64,000 bases of DNA from Tsuneonella dongtanensis. GTDB lineage: Bacteria; Pseudomonadota; Alphaproteobacteria; Sphingomonadales; Sphingomonadaceae. The notes under the pieces are model-generated. The model was not told where the DNA came from, ran no database searches, and saw only the letters and a list, made by a program, of their open reading frames with translations. The stretch is taken from contig NZ_CP016591.1 of NCBI RefSeq assembly GCF_001698205.1, positions 1,612,001 to 1,676,000 on the forward strand. Direction: 5' to 3'. A program made the position numbers and the translations under genes. This document shows, one piece after another, positions 9,013-11,722 of this stretch (position 1 is its first letter; each line of letters begins with the position of its first letter).

Positions 9013-9640
9013 GTTGGCAGGAACACCTCATTCGCGATTTGGCTCCACGCCGCTCGTCGTCGGTGTCGACGAGGCGGGAAGGGGGCCGTTGGCCGGTCCA
9101 GTCGTCGCAGCGGCGGTAGCGCTTTGCAAGCCTCGACCGGGCGGTATCGGCGACTCCAAGAAACTGTCCCCCGCGGATCGGGCGAAGGTCGACGTGTCAG
9201 TCCGGCGGCGCTGCGCGTGGGGCGTGGGTATCGTGGATGTCGACGAAATCGACCGGCTGAACATCTTCGGCGCGACCATGCTGGCGATGACGCTGGCGGT
9301 ATCCCGGCTGGTCGAGGCGCTCGGGCGCGATCCCGAGGTGGTGCTGGTGGACGGCAACCTGACACCGCATGGGAGGTGCGTCGAGTGGCGCTGGGCGGCG
9401 AAGCCCATCGTCGGCGGCGATGCACGTGAGCCGGCGATTGGCGCCGCTAGCATCATCGCCAAGGAATGGCGCGACCGGTTGATGCGCGACGCGGCTGCCG
9501 CGCACCCCCACTACGGCTGGGAACGCAACAAGGGCTACGGTACGCCCGACCATCTCGCCGCCTTGCGGGAGCACGGTCCATGCCCGCTCCACCGCCGCAG
9601 CTTCGCCCCCGTCGCGCAGGCGGACCTGTTCGCGGCCTAG
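9011..9640 (+). CDS. rnhB: Ribonuclease HII
   Basis: A 209-residue RNase HII that removes ribonucleotides and RNA primers from DNA. From the ATG at 9011, VVGVDEAGRGPLAGP carries the catalytic Asp20 and Glu21, and VLVDGN with AAKPIVGGD supplies the later acidic residues. HPHYGWERNKGYGT is the family's C-terminal motif. An ATG at 9005 is equally possible; both overlap the start of the divergent dehydrogenase. The stop shares a CTAG with the stop of the convergent sulfotransferase gene. Confidence 0.9.
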   Translation: MLAGTPHSRFGSTPLVVGVDEAGRGPLAGPVVAAAVALCKPRPGGIGDSKKLSPADRAKVDVSVRRRCAWGVGIVDVDEIDRLNIFGATMLAMTLAVSRLVEALGRDPEVVLVDGNLTPHGRCVEWRWAAKPIVGGDAREPAIGAASIIAKEWRDRLMRDAAAAHPHYGWERNKGYGTPDHLAALREHGPCPLHRRSFAPVAQADLFAA

Positions 9641-10332
9641 CCGAATGCCTTGATCTTCAGCTGGTCGATGTACTTGCGGCCGAACCGCTCCGCATCTTCG
9701 GGCGAGGGAGGCAGGCCGCCGCGATCGTTCCTGGCCGCCAAGATCTCGTCCCGGCTGTTGACGCGCGGAAACTGCTCCGCCGGCACCGGAACGCCCAGGA
9801 ACGCGCACAGTGGCTCCCAGCCGTCCTTGGGGTGGAACACCAGCAGGCGGTCGGCCGGCAGGCCGTCGATGACTGCCTGGTTCCGCTGGCGGTACCAGTC
9901 GGTCATGAAGGCGCGATCGGTCAGCGATCCGCCGTCGAAGTGCCGGAAGATGTTGCCGTGCATCATGTCGCCGGTCGGCGTTCCGCGCAGGCCCCCCTGC
10001 AGCGCCTCGGAAAAGATTGTCTCGCTCACCGATTCGAACCAGCTGTCGGGGTCGCGGTGCGTGAGGACGACTTTCGCGTCCGGGTAATAGTCCGCCAGCT
10101 CGCGCCAATAGGTACATGCGGGATAGTCGGTCGTTGAGCGGAAGCCGCGGAACACTTCGTCCCAGTCGGGCTTCCCCGCCGCGACGTCGATCCACAACGG
10201 CACCTGCCGGCGTGCATCGGCGAACACTTCCGACATGTGGTGGCATGGACCGAAGCCCAGATGCTCCAGCGCGAATTTCAGCGAAAAGGTCGCATTGCGC
10301 CCCAGGCCCGCACCGATCACTTCGAGAGCCAT
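9637..10332 (-). CDS. Sulfotransferase family protein
   Basis: A 231-residue PAPS-dependent sulfotransferase-like protein (PF17784-type). The start is at 10332, with a strong GGAGG just upstream. The N-terminal GAGLGRNATFSLKFAL segment is the 5'-phosphosulphate loop, and VVLTHRDPDSWFES is the 3'-phosphate-binding region. PLCAFLGVPVP is the common C-terminal motif. The acceptor is unknown. It is divergent from ccrM, with which it shares a 262-bp intergenic region, and its stop overlaps the rnhB stop. Confidence 0.82.
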   Translation of the reverse strand: MALEVIGAGLGRNATFSLKFALEHLGFGPCHHMSEVFADARRQVPLWIDVAAGKPDWDEVFRGFRSTTDYPACTYWRELADYYPDAKVVLTHRDPDSWFESVSETIFSEALQGGLRGTPTGDMMHGNIFRHFDGGSLTDRAFMTDWYRQRNQAVIDGLPADRLLVFHPKDGWEPLCAFLGVPVPAEQFPRVNSRDEILAARNDRGGLPPSPEDAERFGRKYIDQLKIKAFG

Positions 10333-10407: not shown

Positions 10408-10580
10408 GAGTCTTCCGCGCCACACCCCACGATATCGAGTCCGGCGATTCCACATGGACTCAACATCTTGTGCCGGACACCTTCTGTTCTTTCTCGGTTG
10501 ATTCCGCGTTAACCATATCGCGCCAAACTCCCCGCTTGACGCCGAGTCCGCGAGGACTCACCCTGTGGATAAGTTGAATC
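10408..10580. promoter_or_regulatory. GANTC-rich ccrM upstream region with a DnaA box
   Basis: Eight GANTC sites fall in 173 bp, at 10408, 10437, 10446, 10457, 10500, 10544, 10555 and 10576. A perfect consensus DnaA box (TTATCCACA on the minus strand, 10564-10572) lies among the last ones. TTAACCAT at 10509-10516 matches a CtrA half-site. GANTC is the target of the methyltransferase encoded immediately downstream, which suggests methylation-dependent control as for Caulobacter ccrM. I could not fix a -35/-10 pair. Confidence 0.7.
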
Positions 10581-10591
10581 AGGGGGAATGA

Positions 10592-11722
<1,131 letters not shown>

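Follow-up and report, generated by a model that had tools for sequence, protein, structure and literature searches.

A central part of the alphaproteobacterial cell cycle is the timing of CcrM, the methyltransferase that modifies GANTC; the usual explanations invoke CtrA, GcrA and DnaA. Caulobacter promoters that depend on GcrA and CcrM usually carry few GANTC sites. NrdR is the dATP/ATP-sensing repressor of ribonucleotide reductase (RNR). CtrA is described as acting on ccrM, GANTC sites upstream of cell-cycle genes have been counted, and control of ccrM by DnaA has been predicted for some Alphaproteobacteria, mainly where CtrA sites are missing (PMC2877005). In Caulobacter, GcrA binds methylated promoters (PMC3667746), and YGAKTCG has been published as the extended motif of GcrA/CcrM promoters (PMC7987155). 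NrdR binds pairs of boxes with 14–17-bp spacers (PMC12051234). Within each box, two highly conserved G/C pairs at a distance of 9 bp are contacted, and NrdR touches exposed bases through its residues D15 and R17 (PMC9110341). In Caulobacter, deletion of ccrM modestly lowers nrdA, among essential genes, and the nrdA promoter contains GANTC (PMC3973325); deletion of nrdR gives ∼10% more spreading on soft agar, explained through RNR (PMC12186491). Among the papers listed in searches of an open-access library, none proposes, by title and start of abstract, a link between NrdR and ccrM, and ccrM is not named in the main text of a study of NrdR regulons (PMC5343134).

The DNA upstream of ccrM in Tsuneonella dongtanensis is probably a composite control region, in which a putative NrdR operator is joined by a core promoter bearing GANTC sites and by a DnaA box. 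Like the NrdR-controlled RNR promoters (nrdAB, nrdHIEF, nrdDG, nrdRJ), it has a pair of predicted boxes, separated by about three helical turns and each with two G/C pairs; a further likeness is the GATTC that overlaps box A in the 22 nrdA-type promoters of our alignment. Unlike them, it precedes a gene for a DNA methyltransferase, a considerable distance separates its boxes from the presumed promoter downstream, and GANTC is found at the inner edge of both boxes. With the GcrA/CcrM-dependent promoters of Caulobacter, e.g., ctrA P1, it shares GANTC in or beside what may be the core promoter, both GcrA and CcrM being encoded (PMC3667746). However, it has eight GANTC sites, five of them conserved, as well as a DnaA box and the putative NrdR operator, and YGAKTCG is unmatched. 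Finally, it resembles the CtrA-activated ccrM promoters of Caulobacter and Brucella in that roughly half of the relatives have a CtrA-like site upstream; by contrast to these promoters, the site is not universal here (TTAACCAT in 42/78) and lies upstream of the −35 element, and a DnaA box is present in 76/78.

The window, that is, the whole stretch of 64,000 bases that was analyzed, spans positions 1,612,001–1,676,000 of a genome comprised of one contig of 3.01 Mb. By its profile matches, the predicted product of 10595–11722 is a CcrM-type methyltransferase: it matches NF050803 with E 1.5e-182 and 606 bits, not reaching the curated cut-off of 830, contains the Pfam domain PF01555 (N6_N4_Mtase) and a RAMA domain, and is the single full-length match genome-wide. 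Among the matches listed, the closest named relative is Tsuneonella litorea, with 93% protein identity. The genome also encodes gcrA (PF07750, E 1.4e-23) and nrdR (TIGR00244, E 2.2e-51, at C1:2142654). Features of the region are collected in Table 1.

Table 1. Features upstream of and including ccrM, in window coordinates; fractions are numbers of relatives.
Feature	Position	Strand	Evidence and conservation
Sulfotransferase-family gene, divergent to ccrM	9640–10332	−	PF17784, E 5.7e-60; gene start 10332
GANTC 1	10408–10412		conserved, 78/78
Predicted NrdR box 1, CCCCACGATATCGAGT	10425–10440		matrix from RNR promoters; C10428 and G10437 invariant
GANTC 2, inner edge of predicted NrdR box 1	10437–10441		conserved, 70/78
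GANTC 3, between predicted NrdR boxes	10446–10450		mostly not conserved, 14/78
GANTC 4, inner edge of predicted NrdR box 2	10457–10461		conserved, 73/78
Predicted NrdR box 2, ACTCAACATCTTGTGC, 17-bp spacer from box 1	10458–10473		matrix from RNR promoters; C10461 and G10470 invariant
GTTC, almost invariant, following box 2	10486–10489	+	0.99–1.0 per column (78 aligned relatives)
CtrA-like site TTGA-N7-TTAAC	10498–10513	+	TTAACCAT at 10509–10516, the TTAAC half being its start
GANTC 5, within CtrA-like site	10500–10504		not conserved, 1/78
−35-like TTGACG	10536–10541	+	TTGAC 78/78, TTGACG 66/78
GANTC 6, presumed −35/−10 spacer; left arm of palindrome GAGTCCGCGAGGACTC (10544–10559)	10544–10548		conserved, 65/78
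GANTC 7, presumed −35/−10 spacer	10555–10559		conserved, 78/78
Perfect DnaA box TTATCCACA (top strand TGTGGATAA), about presumed −10/+1	10564–10572	−	sequence match
GANTC 8	10576–10580		not conserved, 0/78 at aligned column
ccrM, GANTC adenine methyltransferase, 375 aa	10595–11722	+	profile matches; start codon assumed

The sequence-only reading of this DNA had claimed eight GANTC sites within 173 bp upstream of ccrM (10408–10580), and all eight are present. The 64,000 bases contain 104 GANTC, while the mean of dinucleotide shuffles is 328, hence GANTC is avoided in the rest of the window. At the window's own density, about 0.28 sites are expected in 173 bp (by arithmetic), and outside the cluster the maximum per 173-bp stretch starting at a site is three. 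A second GANTC-dense region of the genome is the DNA upstream of dnaA (C1:514), with six sites at 125, 158, 187, 195, 321, and 326 in L329:125–330 (genome C1:1–514); parB is at C1:498985, ∼0.5 Mb from dnaA.

For comparison, 80 loci out of 372 confirmed relatives were collected, and the 78 with enough upstream DNA were aligned to the window. Two loci with short upstream DNA (L022 and L060) were left out of the alignment and of the matrix-scan, column and spacer counts. Counts out of 78 refer to the relatives, and counts out of 79 and 81 were used for matrices and columns, two of the 81 regions having truncated upstream DNA. Five GANTC positions (10408, 10437, 10457, 10544, and 10555) occupy the same column in 65–78 of the 78 relatives, the last two as a pair spaced by 11 bp in 65/78; the remaining three are not shared by most. 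This also bears on the earlier statement that GANTC sites surround the DnaA box, which does not hold for the relatives, as the lone downstream site (10576) is aligned in none of them. In 600 random pairs of sequences, the mean identity was 0.82 in the predicted NrdR boxes and 0.83 in 10536–10572 (promoter and DnaA box), and 0.54 in 10474–10535. Since the elements are conserved while the stretches between them have diverged, the architecture of the region is, judging from the alignment, selected, but three of the eight GANTC sites are not part of it.

The perfect DnaA box reported earlier at 10564–10572 is indeed there. It is the sole one within one mismatch in the window, and perfect copies number five genome-wide; in the relatives, it is kept in 76/78 by alignment and in 78/80 loci by direct scan. 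The CtrA-like sequence noted earlier at 10509 is the second half of TTGA-N7-TTAAC, which we call CtrA-like on the assumption that the CtrA consensus is TTAA-N7-TTAAC. This part of the earlier description stands for the window, but only the 42 relatives mentioned above keep TTAACCAT, and the full CtrA-like site is found with at most one mismatch in 41/78 and perfectly in 0/78. The GTTC at 10486–10489 was considered as a part of GTTC-N7-GTTC, which we take to be a LexA-like pattern, and rejected, as by eye the second half is not conserved.

Downstream of these sites, the arrangement may be that of GANTC within or beside a sigma-70-type promoter (TTGAC in 78/78, the 11-bp GANTC pair in 65/78) with no recognized −10: after TTGACG no standard −10 is seen, the hexamer at 17-bp spacing being CACCCT. 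When both strands of the eight GANTC sites were inspected by eye for YGAKTCG, the final G was found in none. TTGACG, the GANTC pair and the DnaA box would be consistent with a core promoter whose spacer carries methylation sites, similar to GcrA-dependent promoters. As the DnaA box would overlie the −10/start region, competition between DnaA and polymerase is presumably to be expected.

The upstream half of the region contains an element missed in the sequence-only reading: 10425–10473 matches a putative tandem NrdR operator. In particular, box 2 resembles ACACWATATATWGTGT, which we take to be the textbook NrdR box; in relatives it comes as close as ACTCAATATATTGTGG, with the partner box 1 located 33 bp upstream. 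To score such pairs, we used a matrix of 44 boxes from 22 nrdA-type promoters, excluding the ccrM sequence. The promoters came from PF02867 loci of 24 genomes, where 22 of 25 loci were used; L089 was left out because its match points to a class II enzyme, L108 because it has no box in register, and L113 because its box A is altered. Training and test promoters belong to different genes of overlapping organisms. By its match to NF006577 (1,050 bits), the RNR of the window genome itself is the alpha subunit of a reductase, and most RNR promoters of the sampled loci hold a conserved box pair. A genome scan for one perfect textbook box found none within three mismatches, the genome's own nrdA boxes included.

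The mean score of the best pair 5′ of ccrM (offsets 31–35) was 17.7 (n = 79). In a control of 1,580 shuffles the mean was −0.1 (sd 4.3, largest 18.2), and one shuffle reached the real median; in 1,580 random 300-bp pieces from ccrM loci the mean was −3.8 (largest 15.3), and none did. Scores of at least 15 were obtained for 58/81 ccrM upstream regions vs. two places elsewhere in 773,544 bases, and scores of at least 12, for 74/81 vs. six places. Motifs, spacing and conservation are direct observations, as is the specificity of the pair to ccrM among the loci scanned. The best offset was 33, that is, a 17-bp spacer, in 66/79 regions, with 31 in nine, 35 in three and 32 in one, and 33 was still the best in 63/79 when offsets of 20–45 were allowed. 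By alignment, the boxes are 33 bp apart in 73/79, and the matrix prefers another offset in 13/79; in L072 the pair is absent by matrix (score −2.0). The 17-bp spacer of the window is within the 14–17-bp range of NrdR binding.

Four columns of the boxes, C10428, G10437, C10461, and G10470, are kept in 79/79 by alignment and in 77–79 of 79 in matrix-picked boxes, and the 9-bp distance within both boxes is found in 75/79. We would equate these positions with the NrdR specificity contacts. The region has 40 invariant columns, the four among them, so that the invariance of these columns alone is not NrdR-specific. On the other hand, the G/C positions stay also in relatives that have lost GANTC 10437 or 10457, which argues for, but does not prove, a constraint on them beyond methylation.

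At the fixed offset of 33, GANTC is located at the inner edge of box 1 in 70/79 regions and of box 2 in 74/79. Of 36 further family genomes (pair score at least 20, offset 33), 32 have it on box 1, 31 on box 2 and 28 on both. The nrdA promoters of the window genome and T. litorea show a 2-bp shift, with the key C outside GATTC. Compared with the NrdR consensus, the ccrM boxes and most nrdA boxes have ACTC or ATTC for ACAC and GAGTC for GTGT. Because these departures from the consensus are what creates GANTC, we read them as selection for methylation sites at predicted NrdR operators.

To see how far these features extend, we considered three sets: all 56 genomes of the GTDB family not returned as loci (29 further family loci, L119–L147, being outside the separate tests), the 24 of 59 other-family genomes of the order with a match, and 100 of 127 other-family genomes of the class with any match, strongest first. 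In the family, a textbook-consensus pair scoring at least 20 (of 32) was found in 43 genomes vs. none in the reversed sequence and 0.8% in Markov sequences; 13/56 were below the threshold. A first unmasked scan placed NrdR pairs far beyond the family, e.g., ACGCAGGATATGGTGT, and exceeded the shuffles' 99th percentile in 16/80 with the RNR matrix and in 30/80 with the textbook consensus, while unmasked single boxes of at least 13 (of 16) in the class numbered 9/100 (reversed 0, Markov 0.25%). Many of these distant pairs are conserved codons of rnhB located upstream, an effect exposed by motif discovery on 124 regions; rnhB was present in 151/180 upstream regions and was then masked, leaving 10/100 class regions too short. 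After masking, the textbook pair at 20 or more was found in 1/24 genomes of the order and 13/90 of the class (reversed 3, Markov 4.6%), and pairs of at least 22 in 4/90 (reversed 0, Markov 0.4%). Strong class cases are few, e.g., G247 with ACACAATATCTTGTGT, and the NrdR signal outside the GTDB family is weak. Among class genomes, 13 had no nrdR match; three of these with a clear ccrM match (G232, G237, and G319) score 19–20 in AT-rich DNA and are uninformative.

GANTC density behaves differently from the pair. Upstream of ccrM, with rnhB masked, it is 25.4, 23.1, and 20.3 per kb in the family, order and class sets, respectively, and 5.4, 5.0, and 4.8 per kb in the corresponding Markov sequences. 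Since none of the three sets lacks this high density, abundance of GANTC upstream of ccrM is, on these counts, general, and the predicted NrdR pair is mainly a feature of the GTDB family.

Several class boxes overlie the 3′ tail of rnhB (codons CAC AAG ATA TTG), and where rnhB precedes ccrM, its last codons are often CACAAGATATTGAG-like (e.g., L259, L290, and L304), the peptide being HK[IM]L or RK[IM]L. The codons ATA and TTG seem unusual in G+C-rich genomes. Possibly, the rnhB 3′ end is overlapped by an operator in these class-level loci. With rnhB masked, up to 300 bp of upstream DNA contained an exact DnaA box in 14/56 family, 0/24 order and 6/100 class genomes. In five family members (G062, G056, G145, G059, and G074), a DnaA box is found not by the start codon but ∼150–167 bp ahead of the ccrM match, close to the NrdR-box positions or between them. 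In two 0.9-Mb genomes of one family (G307 and G218; loci L312 and L313), nrdR is divergent to ccrM, with the matches about 186 bp apart; in these two loci, a convincing NrdR box pair was not found (scores 17 and 18).

Could the conserved block upstream simply provide more GANTC/GcrA sites, with ccrM controlled by nothing beyond methylation state, GcrA/CtrA and DnaA? The five conserved GANTC positions and the conserved DnaA box speak for such control, as do the class-wide GANTC density, the presence of gcrA and the DnaA-to-ccrM prediction already published (PMC2877005). However, box bases outside GANTC are conserved as well, the mean majority fraction being 0.92 in box 2 and 0.75 in box 1 vs. 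0.47 between the boxes; the four G/C columns persist in 79/79 even where GANTC is lost; and neither the match to the nrdA promoter boxes nor the prevailing 17-bp spacer is predicted by GANTC alone. We consider this explanation unlikely. The sequence-only reading had placed ccrM under methylation state together with DnaA and had named a lack of conserved GANTC positions in close relatives as refuting. With five of these positions kept in most relatives, it withstood that check, and as the DnaA box is kept too, such control is plausible. The upstream half, however, seems better explained as a tandem NrdR operator with GANTC on its inner edges. Its observation was right and its interpretation half right, the composite promoter being the most likely reading.

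Somewhat less likely again is that the paired boxes bind not NrdR but another regulator common to the nrdA and ccrM promoters, e.g., an S-phase regulator. The nrdA promoters used for training are only presumed NrdR targets, and the boxes of this family depart from the textbook consensus, both of which would suit such a regulator. Nevertheless, the signature described for NrdR is just such a pair of boxes, spaced by about three helical turns and with G/C pairs at 9-bp distance (PMC9110341, PMC12051234), scoring by the textbook consensus independently finds pairs in the 43 of 56 family genomes, and nrdR is in the genome. That the block serves another transcript, such as the divergent gene, rnhB or a small RNA, and is next to ccrM by chance, is highly improbable. 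The divergent sulfotransferase gene does start at 10332, but the block stays in the 78 aligned loci while the upstream neighbor varies: over the 80 loci, rnhB is close upstream in 27, the divergent sulfotransferase gene in ten, so that it is not a constant partner of the element, and neither in 43. The NrdA of the window genome as a tblastn query had no match in the 80 ccrM loci.

Under the composite reading, for which binding, repression, the start site, GcrA action and methylation sensitivity are what we infer, dATP/ATP-loaded NrdR would occupy both boxes when dATP is plentiful and reduce transcription of ccrM, just as it represses ribonucleotide reductase. Otherwise, ccrM would be driven from the GANTC-bearing sigma-70-type promoter (TTGACG at 10536) overlapped by DnaA. 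The GANTC pair in the promoter spacer, with sites about one helical turn apart, would be the site of methylation-dependent GcrA action, and DnaA at its box over the presumed −10/start region would compete with polymerase. The predicted NrdR boxes are ∼63–111 bp upstream of the −35-like element, and a repressor that occludes polymerase usually sits closer than that. Inspection by eye for a promoter farther upstream, which box 1 would overlap, gave nothing convincing.

The GANTC sites at the inner edges of the boxes would place adenine methylation beside the base pairs that NrdR is thought to read, and for this reason CcrM may feed back on NrdR binding. More tentatively, and with considerable doubt, one may imagine a closed loop in which NrdR reads dATP and represses both nrdA and ccrM, CcrM methylates GANTC in the NrdR boxes of both promoters and changes the affinity of NrdR, and fork passage, through hemimethylation, together with dNTP depletion jointly release both genes. 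This would be a methylation-gated nucleotide-sensor circuit.

Both the drop of nrdA in Caulobacter without ccrM (PMC3973325) and the spreading of the nrdR deletion (PMC12186491), as described in these sources, fit a link between NrdR and CcrM. If NrdR input to ccrM is direct, DNA methylation would be set by the supply of DNA precursors, and GANTC in the NrdR boxes would mean that adenine methylation is placed on the operator of a nucleotide sensor. The conserved predicted sites thus hint at a wiring of DNA marking to DNA-precursor supply.
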